Part shown: in pieces, positions 3,066 through 12,996 of the stretch
How positions within the stretch are numbered: the stretch's first letter is position 1
Layout: each line of letters starts with the position of its first letter
Assembly (NCBI GenBank): GCA_002408385.1
Contig: DHSB01000156.1
Span: 86,292 to 99,287 of the forward strand
Reading direction: 5' to 3'
DNA: 12,996 nucleotides
DNA from: Myxococcales bacterium UBA5297
Lineage (GTDB): Bacteria > Myxococcota > Myxococcia > Myxococcales > UBA5297
Position numbers and translations under genes: made by a program
Notes under the pieces: generated by a model
Told to the model about the DNA's origin: nothing
Database searches by the model: none
Seen by the model: only the letters and a program-made list of their open reading frames with translations

Positions 3066-4478
3066 ATGGCCGAGACCAACACCGCGCTGTACGACTTCGC
3101 GCTCGCGATTCACGGAGACGTCGACTTCGGGCAGATCGTCGAGCAGATCTCCGAGCTTCAGGAGCGTTTTGCCCTCTCTCCACCCAGCGTCGAGCTCTAC
3201 GGCCGCTCGCAGGCAGGCGAGATCATCGTTCTCTATCGCTTCCCGTTCGCGGCCTACTCGGCGGCGCTGCGCCAGAAGATGCAGAAGGAGGCCGCGCGCC
3301 TCAAGGGCCGGCTCATCGAAGCGGAGCTGCTCTCGACCGATGACCGGGCGCGCTTCTACGCCCAGAGGCTGCGCGGCTGCGACGTTCGCGCCGACGCGAC
3401 CGGAGACCCGCGCGCGGCCGTCGAGGCCTTTCGCGAAGGCATGGGCCTGTCCCCGGGCAAGCCGGCTTACCAGGTGCAGTACGGCTCCCCCGAGGCCATC
3501 GCCGAGGCGTTTGCGCGCTGCGTGGCCGAGGGCTCGCTGTTCGTGCCTGCGCGCCGACTGCCAGAGCCCAAAGCGAGCGTGAGCCTGTTGCTGAGCGCGC
3601 CGGGGGCCAGTCCGCTGCCGGCGACCGGTCTTGTCCTCGAAATCGTGCGGGCGCCCGAGCCGGGCTTCTTCGCGCTGATTTCGCCGGGCGAGGAGCTGAA
3701 GGCCTTCGTCGCGAGGTGCTCGGCCCGGGCACGGCAGGGGCGGGCGCGCCGGCGCGGTGGCCGGCGTCGGCACGCGCGCATCGACACCTGTCTCGACGTA
3801 GAGCTTGGCGACTACTCCGAGCTGTCGCGCGAGCTCGCCGCGAACATCTCGCGGGGAGGGTTGTTCGTCCGCACTTCGCGCCCACCGCCGCTTCGAGCGC
3901 GGGTGCGCCTGAGGCTCAAGCTGCCCGACGGGCAGCTCGCCGAGACCAGCGCCGAGGTGGTCCACGTCATCTCGAGCAGCGAGGCCGAAGCGCGAGGCTG
4001 CTCGCCGGGCGCGGGCGTGGCCTTCGATGCCGGCGGGGCGTTCATCGAGCAGATCGAGCGCCTCCTCGCCAGCTTTCAGGCACGCCGGCCGTGCGTGCTC
4101 GTCGTCGACGACGACCGCTTCTTTCGCATGGTGCTCTCCGAGGCGCTGGTCGAGGCGAAGATGGAGGTGCAGACCGCCGGCGACGGTCAGCAGGCGCTCG
4201 AGGCGCTCGCAGAACGTATGTACGAGCTCGACGCGCTGGTGCTCGACCTGCAGATGCCCAAGCTCGACGGCTACTGCCTGATCGACCGCATCCGGCGGCT
4301 CGGAGGCGAGCTGAACCTGGCCATCGTGGTCCTCTCGGCGACATCGGAGGAAGAGCTCGCGGACCTGCGCGATCGCGGGGGCGTCAGCGAGGCGATTCGC
4401 AAGGGGACGCCTCTGGAGGAGATCGTCCGGCGCATCGCGCGGCTCGTCGATCCGGACGAGCGGCCGGCAGGCCGGTAG
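3066..4478 (+). CDS. PilZ domain plus response-regulator receiver protein
   Basis: This 470-residue protein should link phosphorelay signalling with cyclic-di-GMP. Residues 1 to about 230 match nothing I can name; the stretch around 185-220 might be a degenerate PilZ-like fold. A PilZ domain follows: the RxxxR motif is Arg234 to Arg238, and the second motif is NISRGG at 260-265, so both parts of the c-di-GMP binding signature are present. The C-terminal receiver domain (about 344-462) has the acidic cluster Asp348-350, the phospho-acceptor Asp394 in LDLQMPKLDG, Ser424 at the switch position and Lys446, so it looks functional. There is no DNA-binding or enzymatic output domain; c-di-GMP binding or protein contact is probably the output. 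Proteins of this kind are common in myxobacteria, where some act in motility. The start is set by the N-terminal sequence and the promoter at 3035-3057; there is no obvious ribosome binding site. Confidence 0.88.
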   Translation: MAETNTALYDFALAIHGDVDFGQIVEQISELQERFALSPPSVELYGRSQAGEIIVLYRFPFAAYSAALRQKMQKEAARLKGRLIEAELLSTDDRARFYAQRLRGCDVRADATGDPRAAVEAFREGMGLSPGKPAYQVQYGSPEAIAEAFARCVAEGSLFVPARRLPEPKASVSLLLSAPGASPLPATGLVLEIVRAPEPGFFALISPGEELKAFVARCSARARQGRARRRGGRRRHARIDTCLDVELGDYSELSRELAANISRGGLFVRTSRPPPLRARVRLRLKLPDGQLAETSAEVVHVISSSEAEARGCSPGAGVAFDAGGAFIEQIERLLASFQARRPCVLVVDDDRFFRMVLSEALVEAKMEVQTAGDGQQALEALAERMYELDALVLDLQMPKLDGYCLIDRIRRLGGELNLAIVVLSATSEEELADLRDRGGVSEAIRKGTPLEEIVRRIARLVDPDERPAGR

Positions 4479-4747: not shown

Positions 4748-5608
4748 ATGCGACAGATGACCTTTTTGGCGCTTCTGGCCCTGACTGCCGCCGGCTGCTT
4801 CTACCCGGCCGAGCGGGGAAAGATGCTCGAAGAGCGCCTCGACAGACTCGAAGCAGACAACCGCGAGCTCGAGAGCGCCCTGCAGGCACAGAAAGAGCGG
4901 CTCGAGGCCCAGATCCCCAAGCTCGACGCCCAGGTGGCGCTGGTGAAGCAGACGCTCGACGCGCTCGACAAGTCCGCGCGCCGCACCGGCGCCGACATCG
5001 GGATCCAGGTCGAGCAGCTCCAGGCAGACCTGGCGACCCTGCGCGGCAAGCTCGAAGAGAGCGTCTTCAAGCTGACCGAAGTACAGACTGCGCTCGCGGA
5101 GCTGAAGGAACCGGGGACAAAGCCTGCGACCGCCGGGGCCGCCCAGGGGGGCGAGCCGGCACCGGTTGAGAAGAAGCCCGAGCCTATCGAGAAGCCGACC
5201 GACAAGAAGGCCTTCGCCGACCTCGTGGTCAAGAGGCTGCAAGAGGCGCCCGCCGAGGGCCGCTCGCTCGCCGGCGAGTGGCTGCGCAAGTATCCGACCG
5301 ACGCGCTCGCCGCGCGCATCCACTACGAGCTGGGCGCCAGCTACTTCGCGGAGAAGAACTGCCGCGGCGCGCTCGCCGAGTTCGGCACGCTGATCAAGCC
5401 GGACGCGCCGAAGAGCTTCGCCAAGAGCGAGTGGGCTCCCGAGGCGCTGCTCAAGTCCTCCGAGTGCTTCGACGCCCTCAAGATGCGCGAGGAGGCGCGC
5501 CTGGCGCTCGAGGAGATCGTCAACACCTACCCGAAGAGCCCCGCGGCGAAGACCGCCAAGGCCAAGCTCACCAGCTACAAGACGCCCAAAAAGGGCAAGG
5601 GCCGTTAA
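4748..5608 (+). CDS. Coiled-coil/TPR envelope lipoprotein, CpoB/YbgF-like
   Basis: This is a 286-residue predicted lipoprotein. A short signal peptide ends in a lipobox-like AAGC with Cys17 as the lipid-modified residue. A long heptad-patterned coiled coil follows (about 25-115), then a Pro/Lys/Glu-rich linker, then an alpha-helical region (about 160-280) with TPR features: a KYPTDALAARIHYELG segment, an FAEKNCRGALAEF segment and a final repeat ending in NTYPKSPAAKTAKAKL. This coiled coil plus TPR order is that of CpoB/YbgF, which in E. coli works with the Tol-Pal system and cell-wall synthesis during outer-membrane constriction; CpoB there is soluble periplasmic, whereas this one looks lipid-anchored. 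No tol or pal genes are in the window. The basic C-terminus ends in KKGKGR. It lies 18 bp upstream of the selenoprotein gene and is probably cotranscribed with it. Assignment to the broad family is fairly safe; orthology to CpoB is not established. Confidence 0.8.
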   Translation: MRQMTFLALLALTAAGCFYPAERGKMLEERLDRLEADNRELESALQAQKERLEAQIPKLDAQVALVKQTLDALDKSARRTGADIGIQVEQLQADLATLRGKLEESVFKLTEVQTALAELKEPGTKPATAGAAQGGEPAPVEKKPEPIEKPTDKKAFADLVVKRLQEAPAEGRSLAGEWLRKYPTDALAARIHYELGASYFAEKNCRGALAEFGTLIKPDAPKSFAKSEWAPEALLKSSECFDALKMREEARLALEEIVNTYPKSPAAKTAKAKLTSYKTPKKGKGR

Positions 5609-5626
5609 GCGGTGAGAAGGACCACC

Positions 5627-6745
5627 ATGCGAAGAGACTCCCGCCGATTCGTCCTGGGCACGCTCGCCGTGGCGCTCTTCTGGAGCGCGACCGCGGCCGC
5701 CGCCGAGGACGGCAAGAAAGTGACCCTGCTCTTCACCGGAGACAACGGGGGCGAAGTCGCCCCCTGTGGCTGAGGGGGCAATCCGTCTGGCGGTCTTGCC
5801 AGAAGAGCAACCCTGGTAGCCAAGCAGCGGGCCGCGGGCCCGGTGGTGCTCGTCGACGCGGGCGATGCGCTCGCGCGCTCGGTTCGTCTCGACGTCGAGC
5901 CGGTCCCCACGCAGGCCGAGCGCCGGAAGATGAGCTTCATCCTCGAGACGATGGGCAAGCTCGGCTACGACGCGATGGCCGTCGGCGAGCGCGACCTCGT
6001 GCTCGGGGTCGAGGAGCTGAAGAAGATGGCGGCGAAGGCCAAGGTGACGCTGCTCGCGGCCAACCTCCTCGACAAAGGCGGCAAGCGGCCGTTCGAGCAG
6101 CGCAAGCTCGTCACCGCCGGCGGGGTGAAGGTGGGCATCTTCGCCGTCGCCGAGGGTGCCGAGCTCGAGCGCAAGGGGCTCAAGGTCCTGCCCGCGCTCG
6201 AACAGGCAAACCTGCAGGCCCGCGCCCTGCGCAAGGCCGGCGCCGACCTCGTCGTCGCGCTGCTGCACCAGGACTACGACAGCGCCCTGAAGACGGCCCA
6301 GAAGCTCCAGGGGGTCGATTTCGCCATCCAGTCGCACGGCGGGCGGGTCAGCTCGACGCAGGCTGTCGGCAAGGTGGTGCTCGCCGCGGGCGGTGAGCGA
6401 GGCAGGCGTCTTGGGCGCGCCGAGTTTGAGCTGGGCGGGAAGGGGCCGCTGTTCGATCGGGCCGAGGCGAAGAGCGCGCGGGCGCAGCTCGGGCACCTCG
6501 AACAGACGATTGGCAAGTACAAGCAGCAGCAACAGCAGGCGAGCGCTCAGGCCGAGAAGGACCAGCTCGAGCGTTTGCTCAAGCCCCTCGCCAAGCGCAG
6601 GCAGGAGCTGCTCGCGAAGATGGAGGCCGAGGCGCCGGCCGGCCGCAACTCGGTGCTCTGCGAGCTGGTGCCGCTCGACCGGCGGGTCGCCGACGACCCC
6701 GAGATCGCCCAGACCGCCAAGGAGGTCGAGTCGGCCGCGCGCTGA
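5627..6745 (+). CDS. Predicted Tat-exported selenoprotein, metallophosphatase-like, UGA = Sec49
   Basis: Read through the in-frame TGA at 5771-5773, this gene encodes 372 residues. The start has a good ribosome binding site (GAGAAGGA). The N-terminus contains SRRFVL followed by a hydrophobic stretch and an Ala-rich cleavage region ending near residue 26, a match to the twin-arginine export pattern. The mature part begins like calcineurin-type 5'-nucleotidases: TGDNGGE (37-43), then Cys47-Gly48-Sec49, GGLARR (55-60), VDAGD (76-80), VGERD (119-123), His214 in LLHQDYD and His237 in SHGG. The usual DxH and GNHE metal-site motifs are altered (DNG and GERD), so phosphatase activity is doubtful and a redox or metal-binding role at Cys47/Sec49 is more likely. 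From memory, relatives have Cys-Gly-Cys followed by GGLAR here. A Gln-rich coiled coil (about 280-340) precedes a short tail with Cys345, the only other cysteine. The frame shows no other disruption. A nonsense mutation or sequencing error is the alternative; the hairpin after the TGA argues against both. Confidence 0.85.
5771..5803 (+). promoter_or_regulatory. Bacterial SECIS element with its UGA Sec codon
   Basis: The TGA codon (5771-5773) is followed by a 12-base spacer and a perfect 6-bp stem, TCTGGC (5786-5791) with GCCAGA (5798-5803), closing a six-base loop GGTCTT (5792-5797). Known bacterial SECIS elements lie inside the coding region right after the UGA and have a small apical loop with a G among its first two bases; all this holds here. 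The GGTCT occupies +19 to +23 after the TGA, which by my recollection equals the GGUCU position in E. coli fdhF, where SelB binds. The bulged U of the fdhF stem is not evident. GGG (5776-5778) could pair with CCC (5811-5813) as a weak lower stem. Confidence 0.82.
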
Positions 6746-6766
6746 TTCTTCGGCCGTTCCACAGGC

Positions 6767-6806
6767 GCCCCCTCTTCGCCCCGCGCGAAGCAGGGGGCTT
6801 CTTCTT
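6767..6806 (+). terminator. Intrinsic terminator of the selenoprotein operon
   Basis: GCCCCC (6767-6772) pairs with GGGGGC (6793-6798), and inside it CTTCGC (6774-6779) pairs with GCGAAG (6785-6790) around a CCCGC loop. TTCTTCTTG follows directly. This is a strong hairpin with a T-rich tail, 21 bp after the true stop of the selenoprotein gene. Its position supports transcription through the whole gene, including the part after the in-frame TGA. Confidence 0.85.
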
Positions 6807-7030
6807 GCGGGCCACCGGGCTTCTCTCGCAAGCCGGAACATGGCCGCCCTGAGGGGCGCTGCCGACGCTTCCCCGAGCCGCGCGCGGGCAGGCGCCGGCG
6901 CTGCCGCGTTGTCACGGCCATCCGGTAGTCACCATTTTTAGCCGGAAGACGGCTCTCCGCGAGCCGCTCGCGCTGGCGGCGGGCGGCAGGCGGCAGGACG
7001 AGCGGGCGAAGGCCAGACAGGAGGGGAAAG

Positions 7031-10414: not shown

Positions 10415-12295
10415 ATGGCCCAGCGACCGATGCATCCCGCCTTCTTGACGCTGCTCGCCACCATGGCGATGGCGGCCTGTGGGGGCGAAGCCGATCCGGT
10501 AGCGGGCGTGGACTCCGGCGCGAGCGCGGACGCCGCCGTGGTCGCGCCCGACGCGTCAGATGCGAACGACGGCTCATTGGCCGAGCCGGATGCGGGGAGC
10601 GGGGAGGACGCTTCGCTGCCCGGGCCCGACGGCTCGGTCGCCGGGCCGGATGCGGGGATGGAGGACGCTTCGGTCCCGGGGCCCGATGGCTCGGTGTCCG
10701 ATGGGGGCCTCGACCCTTGCGACCCCAACCCCTGCACCGACGTCGAGGGCCACAGAACCCGCTGCCTCTGGGACGGCGAGGGCGGTTTCGAGTGCCGCTG
10801 CGAGGTCGGCCTCCACGACTCCGAGGGCCTGTGCTGTCCGCCCCACTCGGCCCATCAGCAGGGCGCGTGCGCCTGCGTCGCCGGCTACGTCGACGACGGG
10901 GGCGGCGCGTGCGTCGTCGCCTGCTCCGAGGAGAGCATCGAGGGGCTGAATGGCTGGTGCCCCGAGGGCGAGGTGTGCGTCCAAGGCGCCTGCGTCGCCG
11001 ACCTCTGCGACGGGTTCGCTTGCCCGGCGCGCAGCACCTGTGTCCTGCGCGCGAACGAGCCGTTCTGCCTGTGCGAAGAGGGCCTGCACCTCTCGCAGGA
11101 TCTCTGCTGCCCGTTGCACGCGAGCAACGTGGACGGCGCCTGCGCCTGCGACCCCGGCTACGTCGATCAAGCCGGCGCCTGCGTCGCCGACCCGAGCAAC
11201 CCCTGCTTCCCGACCAACCCCTGCCGGAGCCTGCATCGCAACACCTGCGTCGCCGACGGCGCGGCCGCGGGCGGCTTTCGCTGCGAGTGCAACCAGGGCT
11301 ACGAGGAGCAGGGCGGTGCCTGCGTCCTCTCGGTCTGGACGAGCTGCCCCGCGGGCCTGGTCTGCCGCGCTCAGGTCTGTGTCCCCCAAGACCTGTCGCA
11401 GGAGCAGTGCCTGGTCGATTCGGACTGCCACGAGTTCTTCCCGGACGCGCCGAGCTTCTGCAACGAGTCGGCCGCCGGCGGCATCTGCCTCGGCTGCGTG
11501 CAGCACACCGACTGCCCGGGCAACACGCAGTGCACCTCCTACGGCTCCTGCGCCCTGCTGTGCGACGACGACGGCGATTGCCCCTACGGCCGCTGCTATT
11601 CGGCCACCGGCTTCTGCGGGCAGACCCGCTGCAGCGCGGACACCGATTGCTTCAACGGCACCGTCTGCATCGACGAGGACGGCAACGGCCAGGGGCTGTG
11701 CCTGCGCGTCCCCTGCCTCGAGACCGAGTGTTCCTCCACCCCTCCGAACGGCACCTGCCCGCAGCCTGGGCAGGCATGTCTCTACGGCGCTTGCGTCGAT
11801 AGCTGCAGCCCCAACCCCTGCACGCAGGAGCTCAACAAGACCGTCTGCACCATCGAAGGCGGCGCGCCGGTCTGCTCGTGCGCGCCCGGGTACGCCCTCG
11901 CCGCCGACGGGCGCTGCCTGCCGGAGGCGGCAGAGTGCCCGTCCGGTTTCGCCTGCAGCGGCGGGGTCTGCGCCGACACGTCGAACCCGGGGTTCGTCTG
12001 CGCCCAGGACTCCGACTGCGGCGGCGGGCTCGTCTGCTCTCCTGCACTGCCTTCCGGCTCGTGCCAGGGCTGCAGCCTCACCGCCCCCTGTCCAGCCGGC
12101 CTCGACTGCGTCTCCGGCTACTGCCTCAAGTCCTGCAGCCGGCCCTCCGACTGCCACCCGGAGATGACCTGCCGCGGCTCGGGCTACTGCGGGCGGAAAG
12201 CCTGCGCGTCACCCGCCGACTGCGCCGCGCCCTATGTCTGCGTCGCCGGCGCCGACGGCGGCACCTGCCGGCGCCCTGTCTGCACGGGACCGTAG
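10415..12295 (+). CDS. Large cysteine-rich EGF-like surface lipoprotein
   Basis: This 626-residue protein is a predicted surface or secreted lipoprotein. A signal peptide ends at MAAC with Cys22 as the lipid site, and a good ribosome binding site (AAAGGAAGAG) precedes the ATG. Residues 23 to about 100 are a linker rich in Asp, Ala, Gly, Ser and Pro, with a 20-residue tandem repeat. The rest is densely cysteine-rich. Two homologous modules, at about 105-170 and 195-260, share the order PC/AC, a C-x-C pair, G-L-H, CCP-x-H, GACAC and GYVD, ending in ACV. EGF-like units (GGFRCECNQGYE, VCSCAPGYALAADGRC) and short units of the DSDC or DADC type follow. Such proteins are common in Myxococcota, where the cysteines would form disulfides outside the cytoplasm. 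Binding or adhesion is inference; no enzymatic motif is visible. The gene has its own promoter. Confidence 0.8.
   Translation: MAQRPMHPAFLTLLATMAMAACGGEADPVAGVDSGASADAAVVAPDASDANDGSLAEPDAGSGEDASLPGPDGSVAGPDAGMEDASVPGPDGSVSDGGLDPCDPNPCTDVEGHRTRCLWDGEGGFECRCEVGLHDSEGLCCPPHSAHQQGACACVAGYVDDGGGACVVACSEESIEGLNGWCPEGEVCVQGACVADLCDGFACPARSTCVLRANEPFCLCEEGLHLSQDLCCPLHASNVDGACACDPGYVDQAGACVADPSNPCFPTNPCRSLHRNTCVADGAAAGGFRCECNQGYEEQGGACVLSVWTSCPAGLVCRAQVCVPQDLSQEQCLVDSDCHEFFPDAPSFCNESAAGGICLGCVQHTDCPGNTQCTSYGSCALLCDDDGDCPYGRCYSATGFCGQTRCSADTDCFNGTVCIDEDGNGQGLCLRVPCLETECSSTPPNGTCPQPGQACLYGACVDSCSPNPCTQELNKTVCTIEGGAPVCSCAPGYALAADGRCLPEAAECPSGFACSGGVCADTSNPGFVCAQDSDCGGGLVCSPALPSGSCQGCSLTAPCPAGLDCVSGYCLKSCSRPSDCHPEMTCRGSGYCGRKACASPADCAAPYVCVAGADGGTCRRPVCTGP
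10586..10705 (+). repeat. 60-bp tandem repeat coding the acidic linker
   Basis: Two imperfect 60-bp units begin at 10586 and 10646. They encode PDAGSGEDASLPGPDGSVAG and PDAGMEDASVPGPDGSVSDG. They keep the reading frame and lengthen the flexible linker between the lipid anchor and the cysteine-rich part. Confidence 0.75.
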
Positions 12296-12496
12296 AGCGC
12301 GCGAGCCAAGGATCGGGAGCGCCAGCGTCTCGCTGGCGCGCCGACCAGGCCAGGGCGGCGCCCGAGGAGGAAGCTTCGTTTTCCGACCCGGGGTTCTTCA
12401 CGCGCGCGCATGGGGTCACGGTCTGCGCGGTGGAAAGCAACCCTGTGCTGCCTGCGCGGATAATTGCGCACACCCCCGTCGATGGAAGGAGTGCCG
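12296..12496. other. Intergenic region with an 8-bp palindromic hairpin and possible -10 element
   Basis: GCGCCAGC (12319-12326) and GCTGGCGC (12332-12339) form a perfect 8-bp hairpin with a GTCTC loop, 23 bases after the stop of the cysteine-rich gene. It looks like a REP-type palindrome and has no T-tract. Further right GATAAT (12459-12464) could be a -10 element for the LysM gene, with no clear -35 element; it sits inside TGCGC (12453-12457) and GCGCA (12466-12470). GGAAGGAG precedes the ATG at 12497. Confidence 0.45.
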
Positions 12497-12996
12497 ATGA
12501 GCCACTACGCCATCAAGCCTGGCGAAACCCTCGGTGAGATCGCTCGCCGCTTCAACACCACCGTCAGCGCTATCGCCCGGGCGAACGGCATCCAGAATCC
12601 CGAGAACGTCCCCGCGGGGATGAACCTGGTCATCTCGGGCTGGGACGGGCTCGACTCCTTCGAGAGCGCCAGCGTCGACTCGACCTACAAAGTCAGGAGC
12701 GGCGACAGTCTCTACACCATCGCTCGGAAGCTCGGCACGACCCCGGACGCGCTCATGGCGCTCAACGGCATCCGCAATCCCAACAACCTGCGGGTCGGCC
12801 AGGTCCTCAAGGTCCCCGGTGCGGCGCCTTCCCCTGAGCCCGCGGGCAAGACCTATGAGGTGCAGCGGGGCGACAGCTTCTACACCATCGCCAGGAAGCT
12901 CGGGACGACCCCGGACGCGCTGATGGAGCTCAACGGCATCCGTGATCCCAACGGCCTGCAGGTCGGCCAGCTTCTCAAGGTCCCCGGTGCGGCGCC
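12497..12996 (+). CDS. LysM-repeat protein, 5' part (runs off the window)
   Basis: The visible part is 166 codons with no stop before the window end, so the protein is partial. It starts MSHYAIKPGETLGEIARRF with no signal peptide. Three LysM domains are seen at about residues 3-47, 63-108 and 119-163, each with the pattern Y-x-V/I-x-x-G-D/E-(T/S)-(L/F)-x-x-I-A-R, then LN/AN-G-I-x-(N/D)-P, then a V-P/I-S end. LysM domains bind peptidoglycan or chitin N-acetylglucosamine chains; an enzymatic domain may follow beyond the window, such as a peptidase or amidase. The linkers between the domains are short and Pro/Ser/Ala-rich. The ATG is preceded by GGAAGGAG at a good distance. Absence of an export signal is odd for a wall-binding protein, and suggests either non-classical export or a role inside the cell. 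Confidence 0.85.
   Translation, partial: MSHYAIKPGETLGEIARRFNTTVSAIARANGIQNPENVPAGMNLVISGWDGLDSFESASVDSTYKVRSGDSLYTIARKLGTTPDALMALNGIRNPNNLRVGQVLKVPGAAPSPEPAGKTYEVQRGDSFYTIARKLGTTPDALMELNGIRDPNGLQVGQLLKVPGAA
12683..12996 (+). repeat. 168-bp direct repeats coding LysM domains 2 and 3
   Basis: The unit at 12683-12850 recurs at 12851-12996, cut off by the window end. The two are very alike at the DNA level, including silent positions; for instance GGTCCCCGGTGCGGCGCC ends both at a 168-base offset (12811-12828 and 12979-12996). The first LysM domain (12503-12640) is more diverged. This points to recent duplication within the gene. Confidence 0.8.

Follow-up and report, generated by a model that had tools for sequence, protein, structure and literature searches.

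UshA-like proteins of COG0737 with a Cys-x-selenocysteine (CxU) motif were described in 2008, and the available text of that paper counts 76 selenoproteins and 92 Cys homologs (PMC2398784). The CxU family is listed again in the accessible part of PMC9312934 and, in that of PMC13188914, together with the NCBIfam model NF041198 and a second family, NF049981, whose motif is CxxU. In this study, we examined a gene for such a protein in a stretch of 12,996 nucleotides (nt; here called the window) from Myxococcales bacterium UBA5297 (GenBank assembly GCA_002408385.1, contig DHSB01000156.1, positions 86,292 to 99,287), whose genome sequence comprises 7.65 Mb in 255 contigs. The gene lies on the plus strand at 5627 to 6745 and encodes an UshA-like protein of 372 residues with the motif Cys-Gly-Sec, in which the single selenocysteine (Sec) would be encoded by an in-frame TGA at codon 49.

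A sequence-only reading of the window had taken this protein for a possible member of an undescribed selenoprotein family. Judging from the available text of the three papers and from NF041198, that proposal has to be given up: the family is already known, and the heme-less myxobacterial branch to which the gene belongs represents a variant of it, one that the naming model scores under its cut-off and that is often shortened in databases. A literature search by term found no description of this branch, and the string "Myxococc" is absent from the main text of all three papers.

Results

Comparison with relatives makes us highly confident that the protein carries Sec at codon 49 on a 5'-nucleotidase-like fold, the Sec reading and the fold taken jointly. 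The comparison covers the position of the TGA, the exchange of Cys and TGA, a downstream hairpin, the Sec machinery, the predicted fold, and the loss of metal ligands. The reading frame begins with ATG, is interrupted once, by the TGA at 5771 to 5773, and runs through 323 further sense codons to the stop codon TGA at 6743 to 6745; it is open on both sides of the interruption, as first noticed in the sequence. A likely ribosome binding site, GAGAAGGA (5614 to 5621), precedes the ATG, and residues 1 to 26 (5627 to 5704) form a likely export signal, both recognized by eye and both in line with the sequence-only reading. The hydrophobic N terminus ends with AAAAE, and residues 10 to 23 appear as a low-confidence helix in the structure model (the model and the first row of our alignment A1 comprise 373 residues, with the stop codon read as C). 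Also by eye, several relatives have a lipobox-like Cys in place of this type of export signal, and the Tat-like SRRFVL of the window's signal is not common to them. Frame length itself is weak evidence, since the window has a GC content of 70% and contains 68 frames of at least 80 amino acids, including one of 856 amino acids antisense to the Sec gene, so that the argument is built on comparison.

A first search covered 60 genomes, the source genome and relatives, of which 40 gave matches, and 30 loci (L001 and L020 to L048) were read. The codon aligned to position 49 was TGA in 22 and TGC in 8, and none of the 22 TGA loci had a further in-frame stop within the match. Seven of the eight TGC loci (L042 to L048) encode long C-terminal extensions with 447 to 491 residues past the site; the eighth, L038, is a short form. 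When the phylum (195 genomes) was searched with a profile, 161 genomes gave matches. Setting the limit at an E value of 1.1e-98 left 105 near-full-length relatives; the matches dropped were weaker or partial ones, and some of them contain TGA. Exactly one in-frame stop, a TGA, was found in 85 of the 105, each from a different genome, and the remaining 20 had no stop and were spread over 17 genomes, 12 of which also carry a TGA form. The best 30 of the 105 loci were read and had TGA (27 loci) or TGC (3 loci), always at position 49. Twelve of these 27 TGA loci were genes already seen in the first search, and the set used for the tree described below added 11 TGA genes and 9 Cys loci. Counting distinct genes, the TGA is at position 49 in 48/48 TGA genes read, and Cys takes this position in each of the 20 loci read without a stop, as the sequence-only reading expected of relatives. 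The heme-bearing form L041 is counted as a TGA gene despite its different architecture. A search of the genome contigs for related loci returned no relative.

Protein databases present these genes differently. Standard gene calling places the start at the GTG at 5843, as anticipated, and yields a shortened frame of 300 amino acids (5843 to 6745, plus strand; database protein P0002, MVLVDAGD...). Among 97 database proteins, the residue aligned to position 49 is Cys in 44 and another residue in 12, mostly distant proteins; 10 are unaligned there and 31 start past the site, some of them on short contigs, where the late start may have other causes. None of the 97 displays Sec at this position, but databases may write Sec otherwise.

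Just past the TGA, we identified a candidate selenocysteine insertion sequence (SECIS) hairpin at 5784 to 5805 (plus strand) from its predicted fold, from pair counts over 14 distinct sequences, and from its conserved distance to the TGA. In the window, positions 5786 to 5791 pair with 5798 to 5803 and enclose the loop GGTCTT (5792 to 5797). GGTCT begins exactly 18 nt after the TGA, within the hairpin loop, in 47 of the 48 distinct TGA genes (21/22, 27/27, and 23/24 TGA loci in the three overlapping sets). Loop and distance are identical to those of Escherichia coli fdhF. The eight-pair stem has 88.4% paired cells across the 14 sequences, compared with a mean of 79.1% after shuffling, and a covariation of 0.251 versus 0.098, with 0 of 500 shuffles as high in either case. 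A SECIS-like hairpin at this place is thus conserved among the TGA forms. Moreover, the GC content at third codon positions falls to 46% in codons 50 to 62, from 85% before and 93% after, which fits a constraint at the RNA level, and of the 185 TGA triplets that the window contains on its two strands, only one is followed by GGTCT 18 nt on. The share of relatives with a single TGA (85 of 105), its fixed position, the drop in third-position GC, and the spacing of GGTCT together indicate that the interrupted frame is more than chance.

These data also bear on the possibility that the TGA is a base error and the true codon one for Cys. The two differ by a single base and Cys forms of the protein exist; however, 85 genomes, each assembled separately, show one in-frame TGA, and GGTCT, present at 18 nt here, is missing from the 60 bases past the site in 19 of the 20 Cys loci read. 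The exception is L038, where it begins at 15 nt. We give a base error hardly any probability. L038, a short Cys form from a genome (G015) in which tRNA-Sec was not found, has one residue fewer between the Cys codon and GGTCT, which is perhaps a relic in this locus.

The machinery for Sec was then looked up in the genomes, a check that the sequence-only reading had called for. The source genome encodes selB above the cut-off, tRNA-Sec with a TCA anticodon, selD, and selA in two pieces separated by a run of N. The two pieces lie in different frames and flank the N run, and a frameshift in selA is therefore not demonstrated. The selD gene (L053, 3563 to 4723) belongs to the Sec genes as well: codon 55 of its listed frame is a TGA, read in the context GGG-Sec-ACK. 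Different letters follow this TGA, and GGACCTGGTCCAGGTCC could pair. Between selA and selD, at about 3207 to 3545 of L053 (contig C147), there are short tandem repeats (RRADGRRRADG) and an N run. With a threshold of E 1e-10 or better, tRNA-Sec was present in 138 of the 195 genomes, including all 85 genomes with the TGA form and none of the five genomes limited to Cys forms (G015, G095, G109, G121, and G155). At a laxer threshold, all five gave matches to the tRNA-Sec model, two of them above the Rfam gathering score, and ARAGORN assigned the best of these matches to tRNA-Ser or tRNA-Leu. selB exceeded its cut-off in one of the five (G155) and in both TGA-form controls (G013 and G085), which rules out that all Cys-only genomes lost the Sec machinery. 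Since G155 has selB, its missing tRNA-Sec may reflect an assembly gap (910 contigs). Completeness was rated at 79% for G095 and at 100%, in two contigs, for G109, which is the firm case among these five genomes.

Could the TGA simply be a true stop? The gene would then be broken or encode a leader of 48 residues, and its downstream part would be translated from GTG 5843, if at all. Standard gene calls, such as P0002, treat the TGA in this way. Yet both flanks of the TGA, including Cys47, are conserved in loci at about 33 to 42% identity, the single stop is always TGA in 85 relatives and at the same codon in every such gene read, and tRNA-Sec accompanies it in 85 of 85 genomes; we regard a true stop as highly improbable. 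Less probable still is a selenium-free reading of the TGA as another residue, such as Trp, or by general suppression. The open frame would look identical in that case, but at this position the 20 no-stop loci read encode Cys throughout and never Trp, tRNA-Sec co-occurs without exception, and the same gene ends on a TGA (6743 to 6745).

Several observations weigh against Sec insertion. In the heme-bearing TGA form L041, the hairpin carries GGCTT instead of GGTCT. Only two stem pairs are changed on both sides among the 14 sequences, which is not above shuffles, and in the window itself the stability of the hairpin is only moderate (z = -1.73; 9 of 200 shuffled sequences do equally well). In an Rfam scan, no SECIS family matched, and the matches to other, unrelated families were all weak. 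In the source genome, selA is divided by the N run and the TGA of selD lacks GGTCT at 18 nt. G155, whose sole near-full-length short form is a Cys form, encodes a full-length selB (C508, 1901 to 3814). Finally, the counts of TGA and tRNA-Sec stem from related genomes, so that p-values overstate their independence. On balance, the sequence comparisons make insertion of Sec at codon 49 very likely. None of the three outcomes that the sequence-only reading named as refuting it was seen: selB and tRNA-Sec are there, relatives carry Cys or TGA at the site, and the recurrence of the TGA in 85 genomes speaks against a base error. The genome of L041 (G012) has a second partial match with TGA, on contig C8.

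To follow the exchange of Sec and Cys, 39 proteins (24 Sec and 15 Cys), selected from more available rows, were placed in a tree. The Sec/Cys label needs nine changes, of which eight are forced by well-supported branches, with uncertainty in three long branches. As the tree is rooted arbitrarily, it leaves the direction of the changes unsettled. The clearest pair is the Cys form of G109 beside the Sec form of G013, with RHNPSGGLARRK following the site in both. Relative to G013, GGTCT has been lost in G109 through synonymous changes. When the G109 stretch, the one Cys copy covered by refolding, was folded again, the hairpin was no longer the lowest-energy fold, and part of its stem could still be drawn.

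NF041198, "UshA-like (seleno)protein" (UshA_like_PCGU), matches the Sec protein with an E value of 1e-51 over model positions 5 to 376 of 519, and the PCG[U/C] motif of the family is present. The score of 176.1 bits stays below 275, the curated cut-off. Each of the 26 rows of alignment A1 also matches the model without reaching the cut-off (best, L020, 185 bits), and of seven other forms scored (L041, L042, L048, P0055, P0057, P0060, and P0071) only P0057 passes, with 317 bits. The cut-off thus excludes many relatives and not only the heme-less branch. The C-terminal heme part (model positions beyond 376) is missing from the Sec protein, and its frame contains no CxxCH.

The sequence-only reading had called the protein metallophosphatase-like, which applies to its fold and not to most of its metal-binding and catalytic residues. 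The predicted structure shows an N-terminal metallophosphatase fold and matches 5'-nucleotidases and SoxB. The two-metal ligands and the GNHE His of UshA/5'-nucleotidase are not in place: Asn and His of GNHE occur in none of the 26 aligned proteins, and the remaining metal histidines are found in between 0 and 6 of them. Asp39, Asp77, and His237 are mostly kept, and Cys-Gly-Sec/Cys is invariant (26/26). The nucleotidase C-terminal domain PF02872 was unmatched, and no Pfam family was found in P0001 at E 0.001.

Such a protein might still be a metal-dependent phosphoesterase or a SoxB-like hydrolase in which Sec acts as an additional metal ligand or as a modulator, which we consider possible but on the unlikely side. 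The fold match and the three retained residues favor this, and the SoxB model ranks second by E value, at 55.3 bits against a cut-off of 550. The available text of PMC2398784 adds a point in its favor that also weighs against a redox function, as it places UshA-like proteins among three exceptions to the major families with a conserved Cys-based redox motif. Conversely, the near-complete absence of the metal histidines and of GNHE argues against a hydrolase, as does a separate classical 5'-nucleotidase, with TNDLHG and GNHEFD, encoded in the source genome.

Upstream of the Sec gene, a coiled-coil/TPR protein is encoded at 4748 to 5608 on the same strand (TPR_6 above the cut-off, TolA_bind_tri below), and its gene stops 18 bases 5' of the Sec gene. 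Relatives of this neighbor turned up in 20 of the 29 related loci compared, whose flanks extend about 1.5 kb at most: 19 of the 21 TGA loci, and L038. It is the sole general neighbor. A chemosensory operon upstream was considered as a second one and rejected, as it occurs in only two of six larger neighborhoods (L087 and L092); MCP, CheA, and CheR of L087 gave no tblastn match at 1e-6 in L088 to L091 or in the window. Downstream, a likely intrinsic terminator (6762 to 6808, plus strand) agrees with an earlier expectation: its hairpin with a T-rich tail folds at -26.6 kcal/mol (z = -3.60; none of 200 shuffled sequences did equally well), and it is absent from the output of a simple terminator scan. 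Within the protein, residues 278 to 333 (6458 to 6625) form a helical hairpin in the structure model.

Elsewhere in the window, a sensor histidine kinase with GAF and PAS domains (233 to 2473) and a PilZ and response-regulator protein (3066 to 4478) are encoded upstream of the TPR gene. The protein encoded at 10415 to 12295 looks secreted, is rich in Cys, and has EGF-like repeats (its cEGF match stays under the cut-off), and a protein with LysM-like repeats, recognized by eye, at 12464 to 12994 runs off the window end.

Discussion

We propose that SelB and tRNA-Sec would bind the hairpin just past UGA codon 49, so that ribosomes insert Sec. The protein would then likely be exported to the periplasm, with its N-terminal domain in the predicted fold of 5'-nucleotidase/UshA. 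Cys47-Gly-Sec49 would lie shortly after the first strand, at the site of the first metal ligands in the parent enzymes. As metal and catalytic residues are mostly lost, action through the selenol/thiol pair is probable, and the protein would probably serve in redox or sulfur handling rather than as a phosphatase. A redox role is in keeping with the related long forms, in which the same domain is fused to a multiheme cytochrome; the heme-less branch may have lost the cytochrome part or never had it. To judge from its sequence, the protein is likely a periplasmic selenol/thiol redox protein, and we lean slightly toward redox chemistry by that pair.

A wider scenario, which we put forward tentatively and with well under even confidence, is that a dismantled metal site has become a Cys-Gly-Sec periplasmic enzyme of redox or sulfur transfer, with the upstream TPR/coiled-coil protein as a partner replacing the fused cytochrome. 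Sec and Cys would have been swapped many times, with Cys forms seen either where tRNA-Sec is not found or beside a Sec paralogue. If this is true, the clade would be a natural test of the purpose of Sec: its Sec/Cys pairs, which lie in a single genome or in sister genomes that differ in having the Sec machinery, allow the question of why bacteria keep Sec to be tested on closely related proteins. Two features of annotation bear on its visibility. The high cut-off of the naming model leaves the heme-less branch under threshold, and database copies often begin just past the Sec codon, whereby export signal and key motif are lost.

Among the known systems, SoxB thiosulfohydrolase is distant, the window protein scoring far under its cut-off (55 versus 550 bits). 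Compared with 5'-nucleotidase/UshA (CD73, Thermus 2z1a, and E. coli UshA), it has lost most metal ligands and the catalytic His and has no match to the nucleotidase C-terminal domain. With NF049981 (UshA-like (seleno)protein family 2), it has in common a short UshA-like domain and selenoprotein members, but the match is weak (49.8 bits, cut-off 140) and the motif is CxU here and CxxU there. Closest is the CxU family of NF041198 and COG0737: although the window protein is without the last ~140 model positions, the heme part, it shares with that family PCG[U/C] followed by GGLARR, a common domain, and the exchange of Sec and Cys.
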